45,568 bases of DNA from positions 1 through 45,568 of the IMG/VR virus record IMGVR_UViG_3300031631_000006. One strand, 5' to 3'. A program made the translations under genes and the position numbers. This DNA comes from a virus. Positions 2,957 through 38,918 of this stretch are shown here, piece after piece. Each line of letters begins with the position of its first letter. Position 1 is the first letter of the stretch. The notes beneath the pieces were generated by a model that was not told the origin of the DNA, did no database searches, and saw nothing but the letters and a program-made list of their open reading frames with translations.

Positions 2957-5900
2957 TTAGTTAGGCATTTTGCGTGATCCTACTGCACCTATACCACCAG
3001 CACTTCTATTCATACCTGATGAAGATAAAATAGAACCACCTTTATTTGATAACTTACTAAGCTTTATGATAGAATTAATATCATTATATAATAGTGACCT
3101 TTCGGAACCACTGCCATAAAACAGCTCATTATAATTTTCATCATTTAGTATAGCATGTCCTAAACATATAGTTCTTAATATATCATCTGTAGTATCATCA
3201 CCTTTAGTTATAATTCTACCTGAATCCTGACTCATCAAAAATTGTAAAAACAGGTGATTGACCGGTTTATTATGAACAAGAGCATTTACTTCTTTATCTA
3301 ATAAAATTAATTCATCTACTTTAGATTCTAGTCTAGGAAATATACACTCTTCTCCATACATTGCAGAACGTAAATCTTCAAAATCACTCATTTTAACACT
3401 ATATAACATAGCATCTATTTTATGATCTTGAAATATCTGTTGACTCAAATTAATAGATTGCCACCTATCGAAACAATTATGAACTAATACACCATTTGCT
3501 ATAAATTCATTAGTTTTAGGAACTGTTATATCATATACTTTTTCTCTACCACTTTTAAAATTATTCTTTACTTTACTAGGTACCCCAATATCAGATTTTA
3601 ATATATTAGTAAAATTATTATATAATTCTATATCAAGAACTTTTAACTTATTTAATACTGTATCTAAGTATCCATTATATAAATCCTTTTTACTTACATA
3701 CTTTGAATAAGTACCCGTAAAAGGATATAATCCTGATAAAACAACTTTTTTATTATTATTAGTTTTATATACACATCCTTTATAGGTTCCTTTCTTTATT
3801 CTCCTACTAATAATGTAATCAATTATAGGTTTAAGCGGAATACCAGCAGTCATATCTCTTTTAGTAGTATATTTTCTTTTAAAGTTCTTATGTTTAACAC
3901 CTAAAAAAGGTTTAATAAGTTTTATTAATTTAATAGAATTAATAGTATTTATATTTACAATATCTCCTCTATTAGAGATATAAGAAAATATACCATGTGT
4001 TAGTAGTAATATTTGTATTTGTTTTAACAGCTCTTTTGAAGAGGATATACATTGTATATTATTGTGTGATATACAACCGTCACCTTCGATAAACCCCGCC
4101 ATAAAAGATAATTGTGAATCCTTATCAGCTTCTAGTATAGACCAAGGTATATATTTATAAGGTGCAGTTTTAAAAGTAATACCTAAACTATTCAACCAAC
4201 TACCTAATACTCTTGATCTTTTTTCTACAATATAAATATATTCATAATTAGATTTATACTTTCTACCTAAAATGATTCCATCATACATCTTTCTTTTAGT
4301 TGCTTTTAATTTAACTCCAAATACTTGTTTAAAACATTTTATAAACTTATTTATATAAGTCTTATTCGTGTTACAAAAATTTATATAATTATCTCTTACA
4401 CATCCTTCAGAAACTAATGATCCTAATATAAATCCCAATTCTACAGTCATTACTTTTGGAGTTTTTGGCGGATACTCTGGTAATTTTCCACCTCCCTGTG
4501 GTCTATTACATGTTATACTCGGGAAAAATAATTTAAGTTTAGAAGTCCTATTTAAAGGTTTTGTCCTAATTAACATATAATCAGTTTTTTTAATATCTTT
4601 TATTTCTTTCCACTCTATACAATAATTTTTATTTAATACTTTTACTTTATGATCAGCAGTACCCTTAACTTCAAAACCATGTACAGATCGTATTGTTCTT
4701 ATATCTTTAATACCATTATATTTAAAATTATTAAATAAACCTTTAGTAGATAAACTCGTAGCAATAGAATTATTAAAATCCTCTAAACTATCTAATCTTT
4801 TTAAACCATGTATTGTAGGTAGTAGAGTATCACCTGTTAAACAAACCACCTTAATATTAAAATTTTCTATTATAGGTGTTATAACATGCTCATATATCTT
4901 AGGAAAACTGATTGCATAAGTATCTGGTATTATTTCTATTATACCTGAGGTAGCTATTACTCTCTTATCATCTATATCCATAAAATGCATTATACTACAA
5001 GCAAAACTATCATAATTATAACTACAATCAATAGATAACACGGCAGGATATGTATGAACCTTATTAAACTCTAAAGTAGGATACATTAATGTACCACCTA
5101 AACTATCTTTGACTGTCTTAATACTTTTTATTTTTAACAAATTTTTCTTTTTAGAAAATACTGGAATCAAAACAGTAGGAGTACTAATATAAGGGCTTAA
5201 ACTATATGGCGGGTTAGCCCCAAAATCCCTTTCAGTCTTTACAGGATCTTCTCTAAACTTATCTCTCAAATCTTCTTTTGTAATAGTTGGATTTATTTCC
5301 CAAGTAGAATAATGAAATCCGTATAGTGAAGTACTTGTTTTACTTTGTTTATACATACGCATAGATTTATCGGCCTTACTACTAGGACTTGAGATATAAA
5401 ATCCGTAAGCACTTGGCATATCTGGAAATATTGGTAACAACTTATTTGATGCTGATAATACAGTCATTAGACTGTTATCTAGAGCTGCATAAATTTCATC
5501 AGGATTATATTTTACTTGATTACTACCACCGAAAAACCAGCCTAGCTCGTCCAGTGCTGAAATAATGCGGGTATTATGTACTAAAACATTATTAGCAGCA
5601 AATGTTGAATCTTCTGAGTCAACAGTTAAGTCATAAACTTTCATTTTACCTATATACTCTATAGATACAACTTTTGAAAATGAAATATATTTATCACAGT
5701 ATTTTCTAAATCTTACATTTTTTATATCTTCTATATCTCGTACATTTCTATTATAAATCTTATTTATTTTAGAACTAATATAAACATTAGTAAAAGGTAT
5801 TTTATGGTGTATATATGATTTAGGATTATCTGTTTTTGATATTGTAACATCTTTTTTGTAATCTCTTTTATCTAATCCAGTATATTCTTTTTTAACGAAA

Positions 5901-8092
5901 TTAACACTATCTTCCCTTGTTAAATATACCATGTTACCTTTATTACTAAATTTTCTTATACAGACGTATCCTAGCTTCATTATTAATAATTGTAAAGACT
6001 TGCATAATTCATAAGATTTAGAATAATAATATACTCCTACTCTGCCTGACCTATTTATTATACCACCATCACAACTAATCATTGCACTTACACATTCTAC
6101 AACACATTTTCTTGATGCTTCTAGTATTGACCAGGGCATTACTTTAATATGAGCATTACCCCCCGTTGCACCTATAAGAGTTAGAAACTCAATTATACTA
6201 CCGTAAGTAAAACTAATGACATAACAAGTTCCGGGGCCATTTACATATTTTTCTTTATCAATTATAGATGCTAATCTTGGGTTACATCCAAATACTATTT
6301 TAAAACAATTATAAAAATCATTACACTTATCTTTACTTGTAGTCCAGTATTCAATGCTATTACCCTTTAATGTAACCCAGCCATCAGCTATTAAATATCC
6401 TACCAATCTAGCTAACTTAGGTGTCATCCTATTAGGTAATTTTACTTTATCTCTATTAGTATTGATATAACCTTTTCTAAGTTTAATCCATTTTTTTAAT
6501 TTAAACTTAGAATTAATTCTATACTCAGCAGGTAAACTATAACATAAATCAGTTCTTGGATACTTAATATTAAGTACACCTGCTTTTAACATAGGATGTA
6601 TAACCCACTGGACACCTGTTAATACTACACCTATAGTATCAGAAATATCTTGTCTTGTAAATATTTTACCATCTGCAATATACTTAGCAAGTTTTACATA
6701 TGCAGGTTCATGCTTCTTAATATTATGATTAAATATAAGTTCTTTAGGAAACTCTCCACCCATTTGACAAAATACATATTCACCAATTAAATCCTGCTGT
6801 TCTCTCCATGCCGCTTTACCTTTGTTAGTTAATACTTTAACTCTATGATCATAAGTTGCATCTAATTCTATCCCATTCTCTAAAGTTACCCTATAAACAT
6901 CTTTTTTATACTTTTGGGGTTCGTAATCAATAATCTTTCTACTGCTTTTTCCCTTATAAGTATAAGAACCAAGTAACTTTTTTGGATCATCAAGTCTTAT
7001 AAATCCTCTTGAAGTATTAACTAAAGTATACCCAGGTAAACACTTTCCTCTCAATTTTCTTTTGTCGGGTCCTGCTGGATAGAAGCCTATATTTTTATGA
7101 TTGTAAGTTACAAATGTATCTCTAAGTTTAAATATCTCTTTACCAAGTCTTGATCCTTCTTCATCTAAGAATTTATGATATTCAACATACCAAGGTGCTG
7201 TAGTTATAAGATTGTAAAAAGGTTCCCATAAATTATCATAAGCATCTTGATATCTAAGACCTACAAATGTACCATGAAGAGTACTATTAGGAAGTAGTCC
7301 TAACATTTCAACAGGATTTGGTATTTGTAAATATTTATGAAGAATAGTTGCACTAAATATACCAGTCAAGATGCTCTTACCACTACGTTGGCCAGCAACT
7401 CCTATCATCCTATTATAGTTATTGAATTTCTTATCTTCTATAGCATCATATCTTGACTTACCACATTTTTTACAAACACCATCATAATAAAATATAATTT
7501 TATCTAATATGTTACCTATTGATGTATCAACTTCTATTTTATTATTAATAAAATTATTATCAGAGCAGTATGGACAGTACGAATTAAAGAACTGAAGAGC
7601 TATTTGCAACTGTTTAGGCCATAACTTTATATTAAGAAATCTCTTATCAAGAATAAATTGTATGGAATTATGAGACTTTAATATATCACCTTCATTAATG
7701 AGTGAAAATACAGATGGGTCATAATTAGATTCTATTACACTCTCAACAAGATCAGAGGGAGAAAATAAATCATCCTTATCACTATCATTGCTATAACTGC
7801 TAATATCATTATCATTATTATTATTATCATTATTATTATTATTATTATATTCTTGTATACTTAAAATAGATTTTTTCTTTTTCTTTTTTTTCTTTTTATC
7901 TTTCTTAAAATTGTAGCAAACATTAGATTCATTTAAATTATCTTTACCTAATTTTTTACAGTATAATAAATTTGAACATAAAGTACAATTAGCTTTCTTA
8001 TATATCCACTTTTTGCAAGGCTCTGAACTGCCCTTACACTCATCTTTTAAATACCATATACAATTTACACATGATCTGACTATCTTTGACAT
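2957..8092 (-). CDS. terL: Terminase large subunit (DNA packaging motor), two inteins
   Basis: An ATP-driven motor and nuclease that packages phage DNA into the prohead. The 1,711-residue precursor would splice to about 765 residues. Extein features: a Cys-rich N-terminus with two CxxC clusters (residues 8-59), a Lys run and an Asn/Asp-rich linker, Walker A GVAGQRSGKS (231-240), Walker B (ISALDE) right after intein 1, and RNase H-like nuclease residues SIDCSYNYDS before intein 2, DRW just after it, and an Asp-rich motif near the C-terminus. Intein 1 precedes Walker B; intein 2 sits next to the nuclease DRW motif. The mature protein is longer than most TerL because of the N-terminal extension. 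Confidence 0.92.
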   Translation of the reverse strand: MSKIVRSCVNCIWYLKDECKGSSEPCKKWIYKKANCTLCSNLLYCKKLGKDNLNESNVCYNFKKDKKKKKKKKKSILSIQEYNNNNNNDNNNNDNDISSYSNDSDKDDLFSPSDLVESVIESNYDPSVFSLINEGDILKSHNSIQFILDKRFLNIKLWPKQLQIALQFFNSYCPYCSDNNFINNKIEVDTSIGNILDKIIFYYDGVCKKCGKSRYDAIEDKKFNNYNRMIGVAGQRSGKSILTGIFSATILHKYLQIPNPVEMLGLLPNSTLHGTFVGLRYQDAYDNLWEPFYNLITTAPWYVEYHKFLDEEGSRLGKEIFKLRDTFVTYNHKNIGFYPAGPDKRKLRGKCLPGYTLVNTSRGFIRLDDPKKLLGSYTYKGKSSRKIIDYEPQKYKKDVYRVTLENGIELDATYDHRVKVLTNKGKAAWREQQDLIGEYVFCQMGGEFPKELIFNHNIKKHEPAYVKLAKYIADGKIFTRQDISDTIGVVLTGVQWVIHPMLKAGVLNIKYPRTDLCYSLPAEYRINSKFKLKKWIKLRKGYINTNRDKVKLPNRMTPKLARLVGYLIADGWVTLKGNSIEYWTTSKDKCNDFYNCFKIVFGCNPRLASIIDKEKYVNGPGTCYVISFTYGSIIEFLTLIGATGGNAHIKVMPWSILEASRKCVVECVSAMISCDGGIINRSGRVGVYYYSKSYELCKSLQLLIMKLGYVCIRKFSNKGNMVYLTREDSVNFVKKEYTGLDKRDYKKDVTISKTDNPKSYIHHKIPFTNVYISSKINKIYNRNVRDIEDIKNVRFRKYCDKYISFSKVVSIEYIGKMKVYDLTVDSEDSTFAANNVLVHNTRIISALDELGWFFGGSNQVKYNPDEIYAALDNSLMTVLSASNKLLPIFPDMPSAYGFYISSPSSKADKSMRMYKQSKTSTSLYGFHYSTWEINPTITKEDLRDKFREDPVKTERDFGANPPYSLSPYISTPTVLIPVFSKKKNLLKIKSIKTVKDSLGGTLMYPTLEFNKVHTYPAVLSIDCSYNYDSFACSIMHFMDIDDKRVIATSGIIEIIPDTYAISFPKIYEHVITPIIENFNIKVVCLTGDTLLPTIHGLKRLDSLEDFNNSIATSLSTKGLFNNFKYNGIKDIRTIRSVHGFEVKGTADHKVKVLNKNYCIEWKEIKDIKKTDYMLIRTKPLNRTSKLKLFFPSITCNRPQGGGKLPEYPPKTPKVMTVELGFILGSLVSEGCVRDNYINFCNTNKTYINKFIKCFKQVFGVKLKATKRKMYDGIILGRKYKSNYEYIYIVEKRSRVLGSWLNSLGITFKTAPYKYIPWSILEADKDSQLSFMAGFIEGDGCISHNNIQCISSSKELLKQIQILLLTHGIFSYISNRGDIVNINTINSIKLIKLIKPFLGVKHKNFKRKYTTKRDMTAGIPLKPIIDYIISRRIKKGTYKGCVYKTNNNKKVVLSGLYPFTGTYSKYVSKKDLYNGYLDTVLNKLKVLDIELYNNFTNILKSDIGVPSKVKNNFKSGREKVYDITVPKTNEFIANGVLVHNCFDRWQSINLSQQIFQDHKIDAMLYSVKMSDFEDLRSAMYGEECIFPRLESKVDELILLDKEVNALVHNKPVNHLFLQFLMSQDSGRIITKGDDTTDDILRTICLGHAILNDENYNELFYGSGSERSLLYNDINSIIKLSKLSNKGGSILSSSGMNRSAGGIGAVGSRKMPN
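3476..4843 (-). mobile_element. Intein 2 of TerL, LAGLIDADG type, motifs intact
   Basis: 456 residues, from Cys1 (CLTGDTLLPT) to the terminal His-Asn (GVLVHN), followed by +1 Cys of the extein (CFDRW). Splicing blocks are clear: a block-B-like segment with TADHKVKVL and a C-terminal VYDITVP...FIANG block. Two LAGLIDADG motifs carry both acidic residues: GSLVSEG (Glu146) and MAGFIEGDG (Asp255). The endonuclease is therefore likely active. It interrupts the terminase nuclease domain between VV and CFDRW. Confidence 0.93.
5573..7042 (-). mobile_element. Intein 1 of TerL, LAGLIDADG type, motifs intact
   Basis: 490 residues, from Cys1 (CLPGYTLVNT) to His-Asn (NVLVHN), with +1 Thr (TRIISALDE). The block-B-like segment has DATYDHRVKV, and the end reads VYDLTVDS. 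The endonuclease has both acidic residues: LVGYLIADG (Asp220) and AMISCDGG (Asp325). An extra helical region lies at about residues 110-190, before the first motif, possibly a DNA-recognition domain. The insertion point is six residues before the Walker B Asp-Glu, a highly conserved target. Confidence 0.93.
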
Positions 8093-19226: not shown

Positions 19227-22058
19227 TTATATCTCCTCAAATTTATACTTAGTCATTTCTGCCATAGCTTTCTTTCTAAAAGATTCTGAAATTGGTCCAT
19301 CATCAATAAAGAATCTTATTAATGGTTTATTCTTTCCTTTAAGTGGTCTCCTAATTCTACTGAACTCTTGATACATAGCATGTATATCAAAAGATGGGTA
19401 AGTAATATAAATACAAGACATTGAGGGAGCATCAAATCCTAGGCTTATCATTCCTTTAGTAGCAGTAACAACATCATATTTACCATCTCTAATATCTTGA
19501 GATACAGTCGTTCTATTTTTTACAGAGCTGATATAAGAAATAACCTTACTATTAGTAACTTTTCTTATCTCGTCAGCTAAGTAATTTGCATGTGCTACCC
19601 TTTTAACTGGGATTATTATTTTATACCCATTTTTAAGATCTTCTTTAGCTGTTTCTACTATCAAATCATTTCTTTCTTCATTATTGGCTATAGCTGCCCA
19701 AAAGTAATTCCAATACCTGGGAGTCCAGTTTTTATAGTTAGGAGTTACCCAACCTGTTTCAACAAAACAATAATCACAACTTAATTGTTCTTCACCACCC
19801 ATAATAGTTGGCGGTCCCATTATAGCGTTAGATTTAAAATGTAATTGGTCTTTTCTTTCAGGTGTTGCTGTTAAACCACACCTATATTTAGAATTAAATC
19901 TTGATACACGCTTAGAAAATTTATTTGCACCTAGTTTATGACAATTGGAAACTAATATTGGTTTATACCCATTATTAATATTATTATTTTTTGTACCCAC
20001 CGCAAAATAATTATGAGTTCCATAAACAGTCAAATTAAATACTACTTTAGGTCTACCACCAGTACCTAAATTACTTGAAGGTATATATACTATCTTAGTT
20101 ATTGTTTCATCGTGATTATTAATAAAAGATTCAATTTTAGCTTGCTTATCATTTATGTTTAATTTAGCATCTAAAATAAGACAATCTACACCTACTCTTT
20201 TATACATTTTCTTTAATAGTTTAGCTTTATCTTTACAATGCCAATATTCAAAATCCATAACTTCTATTACTTTATTAGTTCTGTAAGAGGGAGACCTAAC
20301 CCAATCAACACAGGCATTAGTATTAACCCTAACACCTTCTTCTTTTTTACACTCTTCTAGATATTTGCAAGTACCACACTTAAAAGGAATATAAATAAAA
20401 TCAGGGTTTTTCTTATAATTTCTATCTACAGAATAGCATGGAATATCTTTACAATTATCACAATCTCTTTTTAATCCGGCTGGGTTTAAAGTTATAAAAT
20501 ATATACCGTCACCTGTAAACTGTAAATTACTAATACTACAATCTATAACCTCTTTTTCTTTATTATTAGGTTTATTTATATGAATTGGTGCATCCATAAA
20601 TATTTTTACTTGCTTGTCTCTTTCTTTTTTAGATTTAGCCCAAAAAGCTTTAGATACTCCTATTCCCGATTTTATTCTAGTTTCTTCTTTTAACATAGGA
20701 TTATTAATAGTCATTCTTTTAGATGTATTTTGTGCATGTATTTTTCCTTTATTTGTTTCAGTATAAGATAATCTTTTTATAGATTGATTATTTTTAGTTT
20801 TATTTTGATTTTTAAAATTATCAATATTATCTTTACACCAAAATACATGTTGTGGATATGCACCAGCACTAATATAAGTTTTACAAAAAGGACATTTTTT
20901 CATCTCAGCATGTTCATCTAATTTATGACGACCTTTACTACCCGTATTATCAAATATATCACCACATTCTTCACATACATAACCCCTACTTATGTCCCCA
21001 TCATAAGTAACTACTGTATCTCCTATTTTTAATTCTTTGGCTGGTATATATCCCTTATTTTTTGTATAAATTTTATGTGTTTCCGTTACAGTTAAACTTT
21101 TACCATTAACATAAAATTTTACCATACCTCCTATAACATTATTCTTAATTTTTTTAATTATTTTACGTTTAACTATTTTTTTCTTATCTAAATCATAAGA
21201 TAATACATATGTTATACTTTCATTACTATGTATTTCTGCAATAGGTACAGCATAATTATAATCTATTAAAACTAATGTATTACCTGGTAAACACTCATCT
21301 ACTAATAATAATCCAAATTTATTCTTAATATCTCTAAGTCTTTGTTTACCTGTCTTACTAATAAATTGCTGCCAAGTATAAAGACATACACTTAGTTTAT
21401 CAACTTCATCGGGTCTCGGATTAATAGCAATTAATTTATGACCTAGTAATTTAGACTTAGACTCAATATCAGTAAACTTCATAAAAGAATTATAAAACTG
21501 ATCAAGTAATTCTTTCTGGTGAATTATAATAACTACTCTAGTTTTAAGTTTAGATGCCAATATAACACCAATTCCTGTCTTTCCCGAACCGGCGGGGGCA
21601 ACGACAATCCCCTTTTTATACTTTAACCAATCTTTACACGTTTTTATCTGATCTGACTTTCTGGGTTCCTCAAGTTTCTTCCATAAAACTGAATACTGCA
21701 TATCTATCTTTAATTTTGGATACACTCTTTTATCTTTTACTACAATATTATGTTCTGCCTCTATTCTTTCTATAACTTCATCAATAAACTCTATATCACC
21801 CCTTTCTACTATAAACCACTTACTAGTTCTAGAATAAGTTTTTATAACAAACTTAGCTTCTTTACAAGAATAACAACCTTTCCTACCTTTTTCTTTTAAT
21901 ATTTTACAAGGCAGTGATCTGCTATAAGTAACACAAGTAGTAGGATCAAACATTATTTTTAACGTTTTAGATTTTAACCATTTCTTTAAAGTAGCATCAA
22001 ATTTATTATATAACTTTCTAGGAATATAGAGTTTATCAGATAAAATTAATTTATACAT
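19227..22058 (-). CDS. SF2 DNA helicase (UvsW/XPB-like) with intein in the DExH box
   Basis: 943 residues as precursor, 493 after intein removal. Walker A APAGSGKT (154-161), LLLVDE (motif II, residues 250-255) completed by CH after the intein to give DECH, GLTATPERKD (motif III), and QEFSRIRRP (motif VI). This is the UvsW/XPB-type layout used for branch migration and fork rescue in T4-like recombination. An N-terminal CxxC (CYSC) lies near residue 62. Its neighbours upstream are RecA and the ssDNA-binding-like gene. It starts where the 22058-22273 gene ends. Confidence 0.9.
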   Translation of the reverse strand: MYKLILSDKLYIPRKLYNKFDATLKKWLKSKTLKIMFDPTTCVTYSRSLPCKILKEKGRKGCYSCKEAKFVIKTYSRTSKWFIVERGDIEFIDEVIERIEAEHNIVVKDKRVYPKLKIDMQYSVLWKKLEEPRKSDQIKTCKDWLKYKKGIVVAPAGSGKTGIGVILASKLKTRVVIIIHQKELLDQFYNSFMKFTDIESKSKLLGHKLIAINPRPDEVDKLSVCLYTWQQFISKTGKQRLRDIKNKFGLLLVDECLPGNTLVLIDYNYAVPIAEIHSNESITYVLSYDLDKKKIVKRKIIKKIKNNVIGGMVKFYVNGKSLTVTETHKIYTKNKGYIPAKELKIGDTVVTYDGDISRGYVCEECGDIFDNTGSKGRHKLDEHAEMKKCPFCKTYISAGAYPQHVFWCKDNIDNFKNQNKTKNNQSIKRLSYTETNKGKIHAQNTSKRMTINNPMLKEETRIKSGIGVSKAFWAKSKKERDKQVKIFMDAPIHINKPNNKEKEVIDCSISNLQFTGDGIYFITLNPAGLKRDCDNCKDIPCYSVDRNYKKNPDFIYIPFKCGTCKYLEECKKEEGVRVNTNACVDWVRSPSYRTNKVIEVMDFEYWHCKDKAKLLKKMYKRVGVDCLILDAKLNINDKQAKIESFINNHDETITKIVYIPSSNLGTGGRPKVVFNLTVYGTHNYFAVGTKNNNINNGYKPILVSNCHKLGANKFSKRVSRFNSKYRCGLTATPERKDQLHFKSNAIMGPPTIMGGEEQLSCDYCFVETGWVTPNYKNWTPRYWNYFWAAIANNEERNDLIVETAKEDLKNGYKIIIPVKRVAHANYLADEIRKVTNSKVISYISSVKNRTTVSQDIRDGKYDVVTATKGMISLGFDAPSMSCIYITYPSFDIHAMYQEFSRIRRPLKGKNKPLIRFFIDDGPISESFRKKAMAEMTKYKFEEI
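19944..21293 (-). mobile_element. Helicase intein with a Vsr-like (EDxHD) endonuclease
   Basis: 450 residues, Cys1 (CLPGNTLVLI) to Ser-Asn (KPILVSN), +1 Cys (CHKLGA). It splits the DExH box between Glu and Cys. No LAGLIDADG is present. Instead: zinc-type Cys/His clusters (107-153), a NUMOD3-like NNPMLKEETR (197-206), then a Vsr-like nuclease core: KPNNKEKEVI (241-250), GDG (261-263), NPDF (296-299), KVIEVMDFEYWH (341-352) and LILDAKL (372-378). An extra Cys-rich insert (278-328) interrupts the core. The penultimate residue is Ser rather than the usual His. Confidence 0.88.
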
Positions 22059-22882: not shown

Positions 22883-24772
22883 TTAAACTTCTTCATCATT
22901 AATATCTTCTTCTACATCACCCTCTTGAAATAACTTCATTCCAATACCCTTACTCATTTGTTTCTCACACATTAATCTTAAATTATGTTTCTTAGGATTA
23001 AGAATATGTTCTTTAAAAGTATCATACGTAAATACCTTCTTTGCTAAACCTCTAGCAACCTTTGTTTTCTCAGGCATAACAATATTAAAGCCTTTTTTCT
23101 TTCCTCTAAACTGACCAGTCATCTTTAAATAATTTAGGCAGTCCCAAACAGGACAGACGCCAAATCCTGTTTTTCCCCCGTGTGATGTCCACCATCTTCC
23201 TGTTGTTTCTTTAAAAGGAATATACAACTTATTCTTAATTATTTTTATTTTAAAATGCCTGTATTCATCCTCATCTTCTTCTTCAATAGCACCCTTACCA
23301 TTTTGATTCGCAACGCCCTGTATCCTGATACGACAGTCACCCATATGTTTTAATGTATTACCACCGGGTGAATATTCTGGTGAATTATGAATTATAATAC
23401 CATTATCTACATTACCTACTAAATAATTTTTATTATCTTCAATACTTATATCATATTTTCCTTTCTGACCAAATTTTCTATTAGATCCAATAACTATATC
23501 AGTTATCTCTACAAAAGCATTCTTTAACAAAACTTTATTATCTAATTCAAAATCTATAATAGTACCATTTATTTTATTTTCAAACTTTGTTACTAACATA
23601 TCTCCAATTTTAGCATTTTTAGCTTCAATCCATTTATATTTTTTATTTTTATGAATTAATATTTTATGTCCAGGGGTTATAGTAAAACCGATAACTCCAT
23701 TCTTTGTATCCACAGCTTTTGTTTTAAAGGATATCCAATCCTCTTTTTTATCAATTTTACCATTATAATGCCAATCAACTATTTTCTTAGGCTCTATTTT
23801 TTTAGTTTCTTGATTAAAAGAAAAAACTTCGCCTTCAATTTTATTTTCTACTACTTCTCTCATGTTGTAACTACTACCATCAACAAAAGGTATAACTGTA
23901 TCAGCATGAACACAGCCCCATGCCATTGGCTTTTCTCGTACCTGATTTATGCCAACTAGCGTACAACCTTTAGAACTAACTAAACTTTTAATATCATTAA
24001 GATATTTTCCAAACATTCTAGCGGGGCCGCCTAGTGCATTACTATCATCTTCTGCTACAGCTTGTGGTGTCATAGCAGCCCATGAGTCAATACCTATCAG
24101 CATTTCAGGCCCGCCATAGTTATTTGGAATAGGTACATAAAAATTACCATACTTTGTTAAATACTTTTTAATAAATTTATCCTTTAACAAAGATCTCAAC
24201 TCAGCTAGTGTATATCCTCCAGTTTTCTTAGCTATCTTAGGTGTTACAGGACTCCACATATAATACCATGTTTTACCCATCAACACCTTATCTGGCAATC
24301 TTTTTAAAACCCGTCTAACAAATCTAAGACCCTGTTCACCAAATGCAGGTTTATAATAACGGATTTGTGGTTTTTCAATCCATTTATTAGTGTCCTCATC
24401 CTTTCTTCCAAAAACAGAATCCATATCTCTCTCACCTACTATGTTACCAAACCAAGCAGGGTCAACTAGACCTTCTATATCTAAAAATATACCTTTCATA
24501 CTATTAGGTATTTTCTTCATTGCATTTGCAAAACAACCATATAACATAGTTGTCTTTCCACCATGTTCTGGACCAACTATTTCATAGACTCTCCCTCTCT
24601 GTAAACCACCACCTATACTAAGATCAAGTGTTAGCATACTAGATGATATACATTCTTTAATATTAACAGATGATTTTACTCCTAAAGAAATCATCTTAAC
24701 TGCTTTTTCCTCAGTATCAAACATATCAGATATATCAAATACATCAGAAGGTTTAGACTTACCCTTGGCCAT
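22883..24772 (-). CDS. recA: RecA/UvsX-type recombinase with mini-intein
   Basis: It forms filaments on ssDNA and carries out homologous strand exchange. 629-residue precursor, 452 after splicing (bacterial RecA is about 350). Walker A GPEHGGKTT (67-75), Walker B-like MLIGIDSWAAM (about 224-234), TLVGINQVREK leading into loop L2, and SPEYSPGGNTLK directly after the intein, equivalent to the NPETTTGGNALK loop of E. coli RecA. An insert around residues 165-205 accounts for extra length. The tail is acidic (EEDINDEEV). A structured leader and a 44-bp tandem repeat lie just upstream of the ATG. Confidence 0.93.
   Translation of the reverse strand: MAKGKSKPSDVFDISDMFDTEEKAVKMISLGVKSSVNIKECISSSMLTLDLSIGGGLQRGRVYEIVGPEHGGKTTMLYGCFANAMKKIPNSMKGIFLDIEGLVDPAWFGNIVGERDMDSVFGRKDEDTNKWIEKPQIRYYKPAFGEQGLRFVRRVLKRLPDKVLMGKTWYYMWSPVTPKIAKKTGGYTLAELRSLLKDKFIKKYLTKYGNFYVPIPNNYGGPEMLIGIDSWAAMTPQAVAEDDSNALGGPARMFGKYLNDIKSLVSSKGCTLVGINQVREKPMAWGCVHADTVIPFVDGSSYNMREVVENKIEGEVFSFNQETKKIEPKKIVDWHYNGKIDKKEDWISFKTKAVDTKNGVIGFTITPGHKILIHKNKKYKWIEAKNAKIGDMLVTKFENKINGTIIDFELDNKVLLKNAFVEITDIVIGSNRKFGQKGKYDISIEDNKNYLVGNVDNGIIIHNSPEYSPGGNTLKHMGDCRIRIQGVANQNGKGAIEEEDEDEYRHFKIKIIKNKLYIPFKETTGRWWTSHGGKTGFGVCPVWDCLNYLKMTGQFRGKKKGFNIVMPEKTKVARGLAKKVFTYDTFKEHILNPKKHNLRLMCEKQMSKGIGMKLFQEGDVEEDINDEEV
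23384..23914 (-). mobile_element. RecA mini-intein, no endonuclease
   Basis: 177 residues, Cys1 (CVHADTVIPF) to His-Asn (GIIIHN), +1 Ser (SPEYSPGG). Block-B-like residues TPGHKILIH and a C-terminal YDISIEDNKNYLVGN block are present. No LAGLIDADG, HNH or Vsr-like segment lies between them, so this is a splicing-only element that has lost, or never had, a homing endonuclease. The insertion is in DNA-binding loop L2. Confidence 0.92.
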
Positions 24773-26756: not shown

Positions 26757-27707
26757 TTAATCCACATTGTGTATTAATAGTTCTATCTCCTCAGCAGGTG
26801 TTAAAGGCTCAATAATACCATAGTTTAAACAAATTATGTTTTTAAAAGGTTTAGGCAAATAGTTATATAAGTAGTTATAATTAATGTCTTTACTTCCCTT
26901 TTTATAGTACTTTTCAATAGCTTTTGTTATTTCATTTTTACCTTTTTTACTCTTATTTTCTTGTACTTCTTGTAATGATACTAAACTACCTTCTTTTAAA
27001 TCCCAGAGTTCACTTTTAATAACTCGGTGTTTTCCTGCTTTTATAAACCACACTAAATAACTATTAAAAGGTACTTTGCTTCTTTTAATATTGTAACTGT
27101 TAATCATATCAATCAATACTTCATATGCTTCTGAGTTTAAAGAAGAAGGGTCTGCTACACCTTTTCTTCCTCTCATTAATCCTTTTACTATAAAATGCAA
27201 ATAATGATTTATTAAATTTGTTTGTATATCTTTAATATTTTTAGATAAGTAAGGAAAAGACAGCAGTATCCCATCTATAAACTTTCCCCATTTTTGCTTA
27301 AACTTATAAATATATAAGTTATTTTCATAAGTAAGTTTTTCTCTATCTTCATTATAAATAGTTAATAAGTCTTTATATGTTTTAATAGAAGTATCTACTT
27401 TACTAATTAATTCTATCATGTCTACTCTTGTTACTAACTTACTATTAAATAATACAGTTACCCTAGATTCGTCATAAATAATAAGAAAATTGATTAAATC
27501 ATTTGTCATTTGTAATCTATCTTTATACCTAAATTTCCATTTTATGAATGATGAAATATAATAATTAATAAATTTTGTATTAGATAAATAACATAAAGCA
27601 TTTCTTAAATGGAAATCCAAATCTATTATATGAATAAAACTTTTCCCAGGCAATCCCTTAGCACTTGTTTTAGTATTCAAAAGTGTTTTATTATTAATAA
27701 TAGCCAT
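26757..27707 (-). CDS. Sigma-70-like transcription factor (divergent)
   Basis: 316 residues. A region-2-like segment (about residues 190-235: AYEVLIDMINSYN, then PFNSYLVWFIKAGKHRVIK) resembles the -10-binding helices of sigma factors. A C-terminal region (LPKPFKNIICLNYGIIEPLT, then EEIELL) resembles sigma region 4. Phage sigma factors such as T4 gp55 direct the host RNA polymerase to late promoters. The rest is helical and unrecognised. It abuts the TGT gene, which ends at 27707. The call rests on two weak motif similarities. Confidence 0.5.
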   Translation of the reverse strand: MAIINNKTLLNTKTSAKGLPGKSFIHIIDLDFHLRNALCYLSNTKFINYYISSFIKWKFRYKDRLQMTNDLINFLIIYDESRVTVLFNSKLVTRVDMIELISKVDTSIKTYKDLLTIYNEDREKLTYENNLYIYKFKQKWGKFIDGILLSFPYLSKNIKDIQTNLINHYLHFIVKGLMRGRKGVADPSSLNSEAYEVLIDMINSYNIKRSKVPFNSYLVWFIKAGKHRVIKSELWDLKEGSLVSLQEVQENKSKKGKNEITKAIEKYYKKGSKDINYNYLYNYLPKPFKNIICLNYGIIEPLTPAEEIELLIHNVD

Positions 27708-30652
27708 TATTTCTTTTCCTTTTTTCTTTTCCTTAACTTTAATGATTTTTTGATAGTACCATGAATACCCATTTTTTTCTTGGACTTATCCATTTTATTC
27801 TTAGCTATTTTTTTACCCTTTTTATCTTCTTTAGGGTCTTTATGGTCTTTTAAAATAATTTTCTCTTTCTTCTTTTTCTTTTTAGCTTTAAATTTAAAAT
27901 CTTTATTTAAATGGTATTCTTTATAAAGAGCATATATAGTTTCTAACCTTTTTTCTAAATCTTCTGTTTCATTATATTCGTCTTCTTTTACATCGCCAAA
28001 TAAATTATCAGTACTACCATCATAAGTTTCCTCTTCACCAAACAAACTTAAATCAGCTCTGTAAGCTTTGGATGCTTTTTCAAAACCTATTAATCTAATT
28101 GCTTCTATATAATCAAAAATTTTATACCAATATTTAACTTTCTTTTTTGGAAAAGCCTTAGCAATTATTTTCTTATATTCAGGTAAAGTACATTCCTCTG
28201 CTATTTGTGACCATATACTAACATATTTAGCCATAACATTAATATTATGAAGGATACAACAGGAGTGTGCCATTCCACTATACCTAGAATAGTGCATAAG
28301 TTCTGTCGTTCCAATAGCAGAACATACTGGGCAAGAACAATTTAAGTGGGGAAACAGTTCTTTAGAGTGTAAAATATCCCCTTTTGATGCACCTACATGA
28401 AACTTTTTTAAGTTATGTTTAATAACAGAAAACATTGTAGAACATCTACCAGATTGTAAATGAGAACTAGAATCTGAAGTCAGGTCATGATACTTTCCAA
28501 CCCATGCAAGTATAGGAAGAATTGAAGTATTAGCCATACCAAATACATGATATGATTCTGCTTTTACATAAGTAATAACAGAAAAGATATTATATATAAA
28601 ATCAAAAACATTTCCATAGTAAGTACAACCAATAGCCCAATTCTTTAGTTTGTCATTATAAACTGTATCTATAAATCTTTTTCTATTTTCATATGTAAAT
28701 CCATGACTAATATTATATAGAACTATATCAGGATCTAAATTATCTAACATAACTTTAATATTTGCTTTTTGGACTCTGGCCGACTTCTTTTGTATGCTAT
28801 CACTGGCACCAACAAATAAAGGCATATCTAAAGCTGTTCCTCTATGTACAACTTTATTATACCATTGAGATAATAAAACAGGATCTAAAAATTCTTTTTT
28901 ACCACCAAGTAGTTGAAAACCCCCACTATTATGCACATATAATCCATTAGCTATATAAGAGTGTTCTTCATTACTAACAGTAAAATCATAAGTTTTCATT
29001 TTTTCATTTTCTTTTCTTATACTTATAACTTTATCCCATATAATATTTTTTTCATCAGGTACTGTATTATTGTGATATATCTCACCATTAGTTTTTATTC
29101 TTTTAATATGTTCAGTAAGTCTTTTCTTTTTTCTTCTAGATACAAAACCTATTATTTCATTAAAACATTTAAAACCATAATTATCATATATGTGTATCCT
29201 TCCTGGCGAGTTATTAACAATTCTACTTTCAAGTTTAGTGGTAGGGGGTAAAGTTGTTCTCTTACTTTCATATAAATATGATACTATACCTAAATTTGTG
29301 AGTAAAGATCGTACCTGTCGTCTTAATTTAGTACTATGTGAACAATACTCTATACAGGTAGAATTTAATTTACTTACATACCCATCTGATTCATATAGCG
29401 ATTTCAAAAATTCACAAACCATTATCCTACTTGATCTTAATATTGACCAAGGTACTTCCTTACATCCCGCAGTAACAGATTTACACCCAATATAATTTAA
29501 AAAAGAAAGTACTTTTGAACTCCGCTGAGATTCAACTATATATACTTTTACACCTGTACCCTTAATAGATCCTGATTCATTACCTGTATAATAAGAATCT
29601 AACTTATAACCTAAAGTTGGAAACACACTTTCTATACAACTTATTGCATCTAAGGCAACATCTTTTTCTATACCACAATGTATTCTAAATGTTTTCTTAC
29701 CTATAGAACCATAAGCTATCAAATAACCAAGTAGTCTTGCCAATTTTTTAGTCATTTTATTTGGTATAGTACGATCATCTATGTTATTATCTGTACTATG
29801 TTTAATTCTTACTGCTTTAGAACATATATATTTAATATCATATTTTTGTTTATACTGTGTTAACGTAAGGCCTTGCTTAAATAATACATGCGAATCTAAT
29901 TTTTGAAATGATTCTCCACAAATCTTGCATTTACATTCCTCTGGATAATCTTTAAATTCATTATCCAAATATTCCATATAATTGAAGTTAAATTCAACTG
30001 CTTGATCAGCCCAAATATTAGCACCTACAACAATAGCTACTTTCTCACCTGATCTAATATCATTCAATTCTTTCCAACCACTATCAGTCATTATAGGTTC
30101 GTTTGTTGAAGCTGTTAAAAAATAATTCCTTTTAGTTTTTAAAGTTTTTACTACTCTCTTTTTTGATTTATAAGACCTTATAGTATTATTAATACCATTA
30201 GGTGTACTTAAATTTAAAGAATCATAACCATAACCAGTTTTATGCTGAATCAATTCTTCAATTTCAAATAAACCTTTATCTGTGAATACATGTGTATCCC
30301 CAATTACACAATCACCCATGATAGGTATTTCACTTTTAGACTTATCAAACATACCTTTCTGTTTTGATTTAGTAGGGTCATATGTAAACATTAATCCTGT
30401 ATGTTTAATAGCGGAGTCATATCCTAAGAGATCTGCATTAACACAATAATCATAACTGTTTAAAGGCAATGCCATATTGTATTCTTTATATCCTGGCCTA
30501 ACTACAAATATTTCTCTATCTAACAACTTAGCAGCGAACCCATGTGGATATGCTTTTTCTATATAGGGTCCTACTCTTTTCTTTAATTTAACAAAAATAG
30601 AAACACCAGCAAAACTATGATATCCTGTGCCCGCTGCTATCCATTTTAACAT
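27707..30652 (-). CDS. dpdA: TGT/DpdA-family 7-deazaguanine transglycosylase with intein
   Basis: TGT enzymes swap guanine for a 7-deazaguanine base; the DpdA branch acts on DNA. 981-residue precursor, 520 after splicing. The catalytic-site motif D-SGGFQ is split: Asp114 is the last extein residue and SGGFQLLGG follows the intein. Then ALDMPLFVG, a SDSSSHLQSG segment and the zinc site C-x-C-x2-C (CSCPVC) with a His about 25 residues on (ILHN). A long Lys-rich tail (about 85 residues) is atypical for tRNA enzymes and could bind DNA. FolE and QueE in the same window support a DNA role. tRNA cannot be excluded. Confidence 0.82.
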   Translation of the reverse strand: MLKWIAAGTGYHSFAGVSIFVKLKKRVGPYIEKAYPHGFAAKLLDREIFVVRPGYKEYNMALPLNSYDYCVNADLLGYDSAIKHTGLMFTYDPTKSKQKGMFDKSKSEIPIMGDCVIGDTHVFTDKGLFEIEELIQHKTGYGYDSLNLSTPNGINNTIRSYKSKKRVVKTLKTKRNYFLTASTNEPIMTDSGWKELNDIRSGEKVAIVVGANIWADQAVEFNFNYMEYLDNEFKDYPEECKCKICGESFQKLDSHVLFKQGLTLTQYKQKYDIKYICSKAVRIKHSTDNNIDDRTIPNKMTKKLARLLGYLIAYGSIGKKTFRIHCGIEKDVALDAISCIESVFPTLGYKLDSYYTGNESGSIKGTGVKVYIVESQRSSKVLSFLNYIGCKSVTAGCKEVPWSILRSSRIMVCEFLKSLYESDGYVSKLNSTCIEYCSHSTKLRRQVRSLLTNLGIVSYLYESKRTTLPPTTKLESRIVNNSPGRIHIYDNYGFKCFNEIIGFVSRRKKKRLTEHIKRIKTNGEIYHNNTVPDEKNIIWDKVISIRKENEKMKTYDFTVSNEEHSYIANGLYVHNSGGFQLLGGKKEFLDPVLLSQWYNKVVHRGTALDMPLFVGASDSIQKKSARVQKANIKVMLDNLDPDIVLYNISHGFTYENRKRFIDTVYNDKLKNWAIGCTYYGNVFDFIYNIFSVITYVKAESYHVFGMANTSILPILAWVGKYHDLTSDSSSHLQSGRCSTMFSVIKHNLKKFHVGASKGDILHSKELFPHLNCSCPVCSAIGTTELMHYSRYSGMAHSCCILHNINVMAKYVSIWSQIAEECTLPEYKKIIAKAFPKKKVKYWYKIFDYIEAIRLIGFEKASKAYRADLSLFGEEETYDGSTDNLFGDVKEDEYNETEDLEKRLETIYALYKEYHLNKDFKFKAKKKKKKEKIILKDHKDPKEDKKGKKIAKNKMDKSKKKMGIHGTIKKSLKLRKRKKEKK
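28928..30310 (-). mobile_element. TGT intein, LAGLIDADG type with a substituted catalytic residue
   Basis: 461 residues, Cys1 (CVIGDTHVFT) to His-Asn (GLYVHN), +1 Ser. It has a C2H2-like finger (CKICGESFQKLDSHVLFKQG, about 128-147) typical of phage homing proteins. The first LAGLIDADG motif reads LLGYLIAYG, with Tyr200 in place of the metal-binding Asp; the second keeps Asp309 (LYESDG). Endonuclease activity is therefore doubtful, while the splicing ends look intact. Confidence 0.92.
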
Positions 30653-30915: not shown

Positions 30916-31881
30916 CTAAAATATATTTGTTTCTTTCCAGTAAAGTTTTGCACCTACACTTCCTTTTATCTTTTTTACTATGGCTTTAAATGCTTTTAGA
31001 GATATGTTTTCACATAATTCATCATAGTCACAACCTTCATATAGTGATGGCCATTTTTTACAGGGGTAAAGATTAAATATTTTTTTAACCTTTCCTGTTT
31101 TTATTGCTTCTATTGTTTTATTAACCATCTTATAAGTATTTTTATATAAAATATCATTAACAATATCTTTCTTAAAATCAGTGCTAACTATTCTTGGATT
31201 ATCTCTAGATATATACTTTATTAAATAACCTTTAACATTAATATTATTATTTCCATATCTTACAGGTATTACTCGTTTTAAAGATGATGCATATATCTCA
31301 GCCTGACATTTATGGCTTGTATAAGGTTCTGAAAGATTTCTAATGGCCCACATACCTGTTGTTTTTAATTCTAGTACATAAGCAGGTATCTTCAAATCAG
31401 CATTAATAGAAATAAGTTTATTTATATTTTCTACATTAACTGTCTTAAACTTTTCCTTTGTTAAGTTATTTATAACTTTTTCATCCAGTAAAAGTCCATC
31501 ACAATGACCCCCAACGGGTGCGTCTACAAAATTAACTAGAAGTTCATCATAATACATAAACTTACCGCAAGTAGGGCATACTTGTGGGCCTACCTTAAAT
31601 CTTTCTGTTTTTTTACATCTCTTACATTTCCAATTACCTAAAAAATAACCAGGATTTGCTATAGGACCCCACTTCTGTATACTTTCGTGAACAGACGTAC
31701 CGATATTACAATAAAAATCACCTAAGTAATTCCATTCACCTTCCTCATTAAAGTAATCTATCCATTTAAAAATATATTGTCTTGGGCAGAATGGCATTGA
31801 TGAAGCCCTCATTTCAGGCTTTCTTAATTCATGTTTACCCTGCTTAACTACGTTATTATACATAGTATTAAAATCACTCAA
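30916..31881 (-). CDS. RecB/Cas4-like PD-(D/E)XK nuclease with zinc ribbon
   Basis: 321 residues. Nuclease motifs: His65 (SVHESIQK), Asp128 (VGGHCDGLLL), Glu171-x-Lys173 (VLELKTTG), and Gln193-x3-Tyr197 (HKCQAEIYA), the RecB/Cas4 order. A zinc ribbon (Cys86, 89, 102, 105) is inserted between the first two. Only one Cys is seen near the N-terminus, so a Cas4-type Fe-S cluster is not supported. The likely role is DNA end processing in recombination or replication. The start is TTG at 31881, overlapping the end of the homing endonuclease gene. It was probably joined directly to the primase gene before that insertion. Confidence 0.83.
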   Translation of the reverse strand: MSDFNTMYNNVVKQGKHELRKPEMRASSMPFCPRQYIFKWIDYFNEEGEWNYLGDFYCNIGTSVHESIQKWGPIANPGYFLGNWKCKRCKKTERFKVGPQVCPTCGKFMYYDELLVNFVDAPVGGHCDGLLLDEKVINNLTKEKFKTVNVENINKLISINADLKIPAYVLELKTTGMWAIRNLSEPYTSHKCQAEIYASSLKRVIPVRYGNNNINVKGYLIKYISRDNPRIVSTDFKKDIVNDILYKNTYKMVNKTIEAIKTGKVKKIFNLYPCKKWPSLYEGCDYDELCENISLKAFKAIVKKIKGSVGAKLYWKETNIF

Positions 31882-33538
31882 TTATTTTCTCCCATTTAAT
31901 TTTTCCTAAATCCCATATTCTATGAAATCCTTGGTCTTCTCTTAATTTAACTTCTGTTTTATTTCCTAATTTTTCTTTTTTAGTTTTTCTTAGCTTAGAC
32001 TTGTGGGATCTATCATAACCTTTTACCCAAAAATAATCACGTCTAATATTTTTAATAAATGACATTCCCATTTTTTCATATACATTACCATTAAATAAAC
32101 GATTATCTGAAAAAGTTACTAACTTTCCCTTAAATAATTTTTTAAAATGTTTTTTACTTAATATATAAGACCATATTCCGTGAACTTTATATTCGAAATC
32201 ACTACACATCCTACTTATTTCCCAATCACCACTGTTAAGTCTGCTAGGTTTTCTAATAGACATACAACATATAAGCTGTTTTTTATAAAAAATTCCTATA
32301 TGATATTTAGATTTACAGCCACCTTGAACATGAAACTTATTATAAAAGTTACAAGAAAGTTTATAAGGAATTAATTTAATTTTACATTTTTTAGGTCTAA
32401 TAGGCTTATATTTATTAATTCCTAAATAATTTTTAATAATATTTTTACATATATCCTGCTTATATAACCATTCATCTTCAAAAAACATTAAAAATTTATA
32501 TTTACTACTTTTACAAAGTTTATATTTTTTTAATTCATTCTCTTTTGTACCATCCCCATGCCAAAACAACCCATTAAGTTCGATTGCTAATCTATCAGAT
32601 TTATTTAATCTAACTAATACATCTATTTTAAATCCTCTACCCATTGAATGTTCTAATTTAGCTTTAAATCCTAATTCTTTTACAAAATTTAATACTTCTA
32701 CATTCATTTTTGAAATTCTAGAATATTTTTGTATACACCCACAACTAACTTGTTTACCTATAACAATATCAAAAAGTCTAGCCTTAAATATTCTATTACA
32801 TAAATTACATCTAAATTTAGTAATAGTTGACCATTTACCATCTTCTAAAGGGGTGATTGAAAAACCACTGAAAAATAATTCTAAATTTAATAATGATAAA
32901 TCTGAAGATTTAGTTAAATTATTAGTGTCCCACCATGACCTATAATTTTTAATACATTTACCACAAGATCTATATTCAGTATTTCTAAATAGTGATCGTG
33001 CTTCTACAGATACAATATTACCACAATCACATTTGCATTTTAATTTAACATCAGATCCTTTATAGACACCCGTATTAGGACAACCTACTACTGTTAAATG
33101 ACCATATTTTCTTCCTACCCACCATTTTTTAGAACGTAAATTACATTTTCCACAGCTTAAAATTGTACTTTTCAAATAATACCCTACTCCAACAGAACGT
33201 AACCCACCACAACTACATTTACATTTCAAAATACTTGTATAAAATAATTCCTCAGCTAATTTATTAAAGTTAAGAATACTTAACTTACTTTTATATTTAG
33301 GTATATCTTCTTTCTTAATTAAATTGCATTTTCCACAGGTAGTAGATGTTCCACCTGTTAATCTATTAGGTATATTAGATATTATATTACCGCACTCACA
33401 CACACATTCAATCTTAGACACTTGAGAACCTACACAGGCTCCTTCCTTAGAGCATCCTATAACTTTTAAATCACCAAATTCCCTATTAATCCACCATCTA
33501 TAAGTTCTATAACCCTTAGTATTTTTATTTACACTCAA
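31874..33538 (-). CDS. Vsr-like (EDxHD) homing endonuclease inserted between primase and nuclease genes
   Basis: 554 residues, TTG start at 33538 with GGGAGG upstream. Three to four zinc modules with paired CxC/CxxC motifs in the first half (such as CVCECGNIIS and CKCDCGNIVS) look like repeated DNA-binding ribbons. The nuclease core follows: FKIDVLVRLNKSDRLAIELN, GLFWHGD, and FLMFFEDEW, as in Vsr-like homing enzymes (I-Bth0305I type). The C-terminal part (SIRKPSR, WEISRM, YEKMGMSFI) is the GNAT-like domain often fused to them. Flanking sequence repeats show it is a recent insertion. Confidence 0.85.
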   Translation of the reverse strand: MSVNKNTKGYRTYRWWINREFGDLKVIGCSKEGACVGSQVSKIECVCECGNIISNIPNRLTGGTSTTCGKCNLIKKEDIPKYKSKLSILNFNKLAEELFYTSILKCKCSCGGLRSVGVGYYLKSTILSCGKCNLRSKKWWVGRKYGHLTVVGCPNTGVYKGSDVKLKCKCDCGNIVSVEARSLFRNTEYRSCGKCIKNYRSWWDTNNLTKSSDLSLLNLELFFSGFSITPLEDGKWSTITKFRCNLCNRIFKARLFDIVIGKQVSCGCIQKYSRISKMNVEVLNFVKELGFKAKLEHSMGRGFKIDVLVRLNKSDRLAIELNGLFWHGDGTKENELKKYKLCKSSKYKFLMFFEDEWLYKQDICKNIIKNYLGINKYKPIRPKKCKIKLIPYKLSCNFYNKFHVQGGCKSKYHIGIFYKKQLICCMSIRKPSRLNSGDWEISRMCSDFEYKVHGIWSYILSKKHFKKLFKGKLVTFSDNRLFNGNVYEKMGMSFIKNIRRDYFWVKGYDRSHKSKLRKTKKEKLGNKTEVKLREDQGFHRIWDLGKIKWEKIIE

Positions 33539-38059: not shown

Positions 38060-38918
38060 TATCCTTTTTCCCATTAACAATAGTTTCATTATCTAATTTT
38101 CTGTCACTTGAATACATCTTAATAGTTTCTAATAGAACATCTAAGGTGAGGTCACAAAATTCATCAATCCAATCGCCAATATAATATAAACTATTAGAAC
38201 ATTCCATGACACCAAAAACAATAGGATCTTTTGCTTTCTCTACTTCTTTCTTAGTAGGCTTTGAATTTTCTCCAAGTGGATCATAGTGAAGAATTACAAA
38301 ATTATCAAATACACCTAAAGATATTGCATGATCAATTTGTTTTAGTATATCAAACGGTATTAGTCTATTGAAGTTTTTGATCCAATCAAGTTTAAGAGAC
38401 TTGTTACTGTACTTCTGAAACTTAATAATATCATCTTCTTTAATATAAATATCATATCCGTTATCAACTAATTTAAGTTCTTTATTTATACGCTCTCTTT
38501 CTTCTTCTAAAGTTTCTGCAAATGATGTTTGACCAACTGCTTTGGCTTGGCTTATTAAAACATCTATTGTTTCCTCAGACCTTATAGTAATCCTCTTAAC
38601 ATGTAATAGAGACCTCTTAACTTGTTTAAAGAATTTCTCTGGTGAAAACATATAAGTTATCATATATACTAAAACAGCTTTAGGAGATATTTTAAATAGC
38701 TTCAAAACATTTTTAAATTTAGATTCAGTTGCCCCATTTATAGCATATATAGTAGTGTTATCAAATGCTGTTGTGCTTCCTGTAGTAGTATTTCCTGTAG
38801 TAGTATTTCCTGTATGTACCCATGAACTATTACCACCAAAACTAACTTCCGTACCTCTAGCATTGTTATCTGATTTTTTAAATTTCTTGAATATTGAAAG
38901 TCTTCCATCTTTTAACAT
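38037..38918 (-). CDS. Unknown protein with TTG-type repeats
   Basis: 293 residues, not recognised. A short GNTTTGNTTTGSTTA repeat at about residues 37-51 marks a flexible linker. A hydrophobic stretch (PKAVLVYMITYMFS, about 79-92) and long charged helices follow. The tail is Lys/Asn/Glu rich. It overlaps the clamp-loader start, so it may be a clamp-loader or replication partner, but no family is visible. Confidence 0.6.
   Translation of the reverse strand: MLKDGRLSIFKKFKKSDNNARGTEVSFGGNSSWVHTGNTTTGNTTTGSTTAFDNTTIYAINGATESKFKNVLKLFKISPKAVLVYMITYMFSPEKFFKQVKRSLLHVKRITIRSEETIDVLISQAKAVGQTSFAETLEEERERINKELKLVDNGYDIYIKEDDIIKFQKYSNKSLKLDWIKNFNRLIPFDILKQIDHAISLGVFDNFVILHYDPLGENSKPTKKEVEKAKDPIVFGVMECSNSLYYIGDWIDEFCDLTLDVLLETIKMYSSDRKLDNETIVNGKKDNENKEKR

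Follow-up and report, generated by a model that had tools for sequence, protein, structure and literature searches.

We found that a phage DNA helicase gene is interrupted by a contiguous intein whose inserted nuclease, judged by profiles, alignments and a predicted fold, belongs to the Vsr-like (EDxHD) class. The gene lies on the minus strand of a 45,568-base viral contig (the window, that is, the whole stretch of DNA analyzed), which may itself be a fragment. The element is probably a homing intein, which would splice out of the helicase and whose nuclease would cut intein-free helicase alleles. Catalogued inteins mostly carry LAGLIDADG nucleases, and some carry HNH nucleases; the helicase intein shares with them the combination of a Hint splicing domain and an inserted homing endonuclease, but differs in the nuclease family. 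It is also unusual in the metal-binding-type insertions in its nuclease core and in its Ser-Asn end. The features are as follows (residue numbers are those of the intein unless the ORF is named).

19227–22058, minus strand: phage DEAD/ResIII-type DNA helicase (extein), a 943-amino-acid precursor, 493 amino acids after predicted splicing
19944–21293, minus strand: contiguous intein of 450 amino acids (ORF residues 256–705), inside helicase motif II (after DE, before CH), with Cys as the +1 residue
21003–21293, minus strand: N-terminal splicing region, residues 1–97, with Cys1, block A (CLPGNTLV) and block B (LTVTETHKIYT), aligned with other inteins of the window
20835–20975, minus strand: two zinc-finger-like clusters read from the sequence, C-x2-C-x12-H-x4-H (107–128) and C-x2-C-x11-H-x3-C (134–153)
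20586–20756, minus strand: helical linker, about residues 180–236, with an NNPM..EE motif and helices predicted at 200–217 and 222–233 with low to moderate confidence
20115–20576, minus strand: Vsr-like (EDxHD) nuclease domain, residues 240–393, with E246, D298, E344 and H352, from profiles, alignment and predicted fold
20415–20480, minus strand: Cys-rich insertion 1, about residues 272–293 (CDNCKDIPC), between the GDG strand and NPDF, from the alignment and an hhalign gap
20277–20387, minus strand: Cys-rich insertion 2, about residues 303–339 (CGTCKYLEEC...NACVDW), between NPDF and KVIEV, from the alignment, an hhalign gap and low pLDDT
19944–20048, minus strand: C-terminal splicing region with block F KVVFNLTVYGTHNYFAVG, block G (PILVSN) and terminal Ser-Asn, aligned with other inteins of the window

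The helicase ORF matched the Pfam families ResIII, DEAD and Helicase_C, and the PHROGs family phrog_16 (DNA helicase, 1.3e-41). The intein boundaries given in the first-pass annotation proved exact, with DE·C...N·CH at the flanks (dots mark splice junctions) and full junction sequences LLLVDE·CLPGNT and KPILVSN·CHKLGA. Excision of the intein in silico restored DECH, the helicase motif II. The conserved in-frame insertion site is uninterrupted, as (V/I)DE·xx, in the helicase homologues of phages NCTB, HRDY3 and PhiXhv-12. Precursor and intein form a single 943-residue ORF, and the arrangement of a split intein, with halves on separate ORFs and a nuclease gene between them, is not seen here.

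At the N-terminal end, where the nucleophile and the splicing blocks are both present, a match to TIGR01445 (intein_Nterm) starts exactly at Cys256 of the ORF, covers intein residues 1–77 and scores 32.4–33.9 bits (cut-off 24.5). The Pfam model Intein_splicing spans ORF residues 263–688 at 32.1 bits, under its cut-off of 35.8. At the C-terminal end, Asn450 and the +1 Cys are present, while the penultimate His is replaced by Ser. The C-terminal model TIGR01443 matched weakly (13.2 bits; cut-off 15.6) because of this Ser. The terminal Ser-Asn, an oddity already pointed out from the sequence, is real, and contrasts with the other inteins of the window, all five of which end in His-Asn. From the splicing blocks, self-splicing of the helicase intein is likely.

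The window is dense in inteins, with these five further elements in 45 kb (at 2957–8092, 22883–24772, 27707–30652 and 35531–38089): two in the large terminase, and one each in a RecA/UvsX-like gene (a mini-intein), a TGT-like gene and a clamp loader gene. Four inteins in the window are LAGLIDADG-like, two by matches to Pfam LAGLIDADG_3 and two by reading together with NCBIfam matches to known inteins.

The insert of the helicase intein is of another kind. Models for LAGLIDADG, HNH and GIY-YIG nucleases gave no match to it at E ≤ 10, which agrees with the initial reading that LAGLIDADG and HNH are absent, and it fits neither the LAGLIDADG-intein nor the HNH-intein type. The zinc clusters of that reading correspond to the two Cys/His patterns at residues 107–128 and 134–153, which gave a weak match to zf-C2H2_4 (18.9 bits, under the cut-off). 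The linker with NNPM..EE is possibly a NUMOD3-like DNA-binding element; the motif had been called NUMOD3-like before, but this call found no backing in any model, and no Pfam NUMOD match was obtained in the insert.

Searches with the nuclease alone yielded no match in phages, and no name from Pfam, NCBIfam or single-sequence PDB searches; PHROGs returned weak matches to unknown families only. Direct relatives of the whole intein were absent from the phages and viral contigs searched, as were relatives of the nuclease close enough for selection tests. The plasmids searched contained no Vsr-like match, and genome-contig matches were free-standing ORFs in all cases (9/9).

Family-level comparisons were more telling. 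The peptide motif IE[VLIM]FGDYWH, which forms the core of Vsr-like homing enzymes that are free-standing, was used to collect viral loci. A profile built from the domains of these loci gave the insert 26.8 bits; among 2,000 shuffles the highest score was 10.7, and no unrelated protein of the window exceeded 7.2. An hhalign comparison of ten free-standing Vsr-like enzymes (the insert excluded) with the insert gave 97.1%, an E-value of 5.7e-11 and 33% identity; the alignment runs through GDG, NPDF, KVIEV and YWH, with two clean gaps that correspond to the Cys-rich insertions. When a family profile that included the insert was run against all PDB sequences, 3r3p (I-Bth0305I) came first (7.5e-7) and Vsr next (5.8e-5). 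Members of the alignment of the intein nuclease also matched Pfam DUF559 and Vsr.

The nuclease motifs quoted in the first-pass annotation fall at intein residues 240–249, 261–263, 296–299, 341–352 and 370–378. Columns conserved in the family are kept at E246, G261, P297-D298-F299, I343-E344 and Y350-W351-H352. The Glu, the Asp of PDF and the His of WH expected in EDxHD enzymes are all present: E246, D298 and H352 occupy the alignment columns of the Vsr Glu, PDF Asp and FWH His, corresponding to E25, D51 and H69 (Vsr numbers derived from the spacing of the Vsr sequence, with 18 residues from Asp to His). D51 and H69 are named as the active-site pair of Vsr (PMC11879112). Two positions deviate from the family: where its members have Trp-Glu following the last core strand, the intein nuclease has the one-residue-shorter LDAKL (LIL-DAKL), with an Asp nearby, and FGDYWH has become MDFEYWH, which is longer by one residue. 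The earlier description of a nuclease core split by Cys-rich sequence stands, and the alignment and hhalign gaps show two such insertions. Two members of the same sub-clade, L002 and L104, also carry insertions between PDF and IE. Elsewhere in the window, Cys clusters at the terminase N-terminus (2957–8092; CTLCSNLLYCKKLGKDNLNESNVCYNF) resemble Cys-rich insertion 2 (CGTCKYLEECKKEEGVRVNTNACVDW).

The AlphaFold model of the nuclease core, with pLDDT around 85–95, has a helix-strands-helix-strand-helix order, the PD-(D/E)XK fold of Vsr-like enzymes. The model of the whole intein was poor (pLDDT 57), partly because the helper rows for the Hint domain were misaligned. Foldseek searches with the nuclease model gave no match at E < 0.001, with I-Bth0305I at rank 31; against BFVD there was likewise none at E < 0.001, with restriction, Vsr and homing names among the weak matches. 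In a VIA-align re-examination of the same Foldseek candidates, the best match was 3r3p_A (I-Bth0305I; Z 10.1, rmsd 2.7, 90/97 residues), and 1vsr had a Z of 6.2. The comparison with I-Bth0305I proposed at the outset thus bore out the claim of a Vsr-like nuclease in a contiguous intein, in line with the profile and hhalign results, with no other fold or nuclease class as best match. In principle, the domain could be another restriction-type PD-(D/E)XK enzyme that merely resembles Vsr, and the structural ranking does include several restriction enzymes, at Z 5.5–6.5. This reading, already disfavored, is very improbable: I-Bth0305I leads that ranking over nearly the whole domain, and the profile and motif matches point specifically to Vsr-like homing enzymes. 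No more credible is an origin by capture from a gene of the same genome at 31874–33538, which had been considered conceivable; the two proteins are both Vsr-related and their genes lie about 11 kb apart. In a 61-row tree, however, the intein nuclease fell inside the FGDYWH/GDG free-standing lineage (support 96/84), and a second tree with more groups placed it in the same way (SH-aLRT 99), while the 31874–33538 protein grouped with Hef-like phage homing endonucleases (100/100). Both trees are built on few columns, with the two window rows as long branches, and exact neighbors are unsure. Since neither tree indicates that the two are sisters, and they occupy different well-supported Vsr-like lineages, capture within the genome is rejected as far as the data go; BLASTP detected no meaningful similarity between them, and the Vsr-like profile matched the 31874–33538 protein at 29.7%. 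From this tree placement, the most likely source of the nuclease is a viral enzyme of the GDG/NPDF/FGDYWH lineage that is free-standing, captured in an event separate from those behind other Vsr-bearing inteins.

Two further alternatives concern activity. The element might splice but contain a decayed nuclease, a former homing endonuclease that no longer cuts and is kept as a spacer or stabilizer. The loss of the C-terminal WE of the family, the two large core insertions and the altered MDFEYWH would all fit such decay. We consider it unlikely, though the less so of the two, since the core Glu, Asp, Glu and His positions are intact despite an otherwise divergent sequence, the core is modeled with high pLDDT, and the insertions have counterparts in L002 and L104. 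The insert might alternatively not splice at all: it could be stably retained, or could have arisen by fusion of split-intein halves with a nuclease gene lying between them, and the helicase would then be dead or permanently larger. The change of the penultimate His to Ser, and the existence of split-intein loci with Vsr-like genes, could be taken this way, but the single open frame retains Cys1, the block B Thr and His, block F, the terminal Asn and the +1 Cys, and a dead motif II would presumably be costly in a conserved replication/repair gene; there is little chance that this reading is correct.

As a homing intein, the element would work as follows. The Hint domain would excise itself from the helicase precursor and join DE to CH, restoring motif II. 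The in-frame insert would constitute a whole homing endonuclease, consisting of the zinc-finger-like clusters, which may bind DNA, the helical linker and the C-terminal Vsr-like nuclease. This endonuclease most likely binds intein-free copies of the gene and cuts them in the region of the DE·CH codons, and repair of the cut from an intein-bearing copy would then spread the element.

Several known systems resemble the helicase intein in part. I-Bth0305I is the prototype of EDxHD (Vsr-like) homing endonucleases, and its gene reportedly lies within a group I intron that interrupts recA in a phage. The nuclease fold, the profile match and the layout of DNA-binding domains followed by a C-terminal nuclease are common to both, whereas the helicase nuclease sits inside an intein and carries Cys-rich core insertions. 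In the fractured genes reported by Dassa et al. (2009), a Vsr-like endonuclease gene lies between split-intein halves. The partners, an intein and a Vsr-like nuclease, are the same, but in the helicase they occupy one reading frame and the nuclease belongs to another lineage. The gp43 of Corynebacterium phage phi673 (L506:1561-4071) has the same insertion point in helicase motif II, DE·C...N·CH, but no recognized Vsr nuclease, and its splicing blocks are only weakly similar. In GenBank, phi673 gp43 is annotated just as a putative helicase; it carries the intein-like insert DE·C...VHN·CHH.

The first-pass annotation had called a contiguous intein with a Vsr-like nuclease unusual. The architecture is real, but the statement was too strong. 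Of the 281 Vsr-like ORFs gathered, L385 was the only one outside the window to show a convincing in-frame intein C-terminus; a first scan for the contiguous pattern had produced no Vsr intein, and L385 emerged from a second. L385 (8506–9795) contains a 430-amino-acid contiguous intein within a 1274-amino-acid ORF, with Pfam Intein_splicing and DUF559 both over their cut-offs. A search with this intein retrieved 28 ORFs (L385 and several near-copies counted) that combine, within one frame, a Vsr-like domain and, after it, an intein C-terminus, and several of the contiguous DUF559/Vsr-like inteins are in Phage_Mu_F proteins. They share with the helicase intein a single ORF, a zinc cluster, a helical array and a Vsr-like nuclease, but reside in Mu F-like head proteins, end in the canonical His-Asn and have a nuclease of the DUF559 clade. 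A VVHN·CRC end is frequent in L385, L450–L476 and L484. Because similar one-piece elements occur in other phage genes, the contiguous Vsr-type intein is a recurrent variant and not a one-off, and the DUF559/Vsr-like family may be undescribed and may have more members than the helicase type. Long ORFs with Vsr matches in about 680 prokaryote genomes were not inteins: some were fusions of Vsr with a methyltransferase, one was a free-standing enzyme and one an unrelated enzyme that looked GlmS-like by eye. In L367, L370 and L371, a Vsr-like endonuclease and a C5 DNA methyltransferase are fused in one ORF.

At nine loci in viral contigs (L265, L020, L201, L164, L195, L120, L197, L207 and L065/L091; ten rows, two of which are copies), a Vsr-like ORF lies after the N-half of a split intein, and in most of them the C-half comes next, as in published fractured genes. 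The fractured gene of L120 is gyrB-like. Most of the Mu F inteins fall in the DUF559 clade of the tree; the enzymes of fractured genes lie within or close to a second group, and a third holds the helicase intein. Because the motifs used for sampling differed between the groups, this is evidence for separate captures but not proof. In the literature searched, which did not include the primary accounts of fractured genes and I-Bth0305I, we found no clear description of a contiguous Vsr-like intein; a DUF559/EDxHD gene in the section on intein-containing genes of Thermosynechococcus is an ambiguous possible precedent (PMC9403480). The chances are about even that one-piece inteins have captured Vsr-like (EDxHD) enzymes on two or more occasions, drawing on different lineages, in a phage helicase and in Mu F-like genes, as an undescribed recurrent architecture whose helicase representative has a core split by metal-binding insertions.

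A one-piece intein with a Vsr-like nuclease is the in-frame counterpart of the split-intein/Vsr fractured genes. With free-standing, fractured and contiguous states present in three nuclease lineages, the order and number of captures become testable, and the helicase intein provides a candidate homing enzyme with a predictable target, the codons of helicase motif II.
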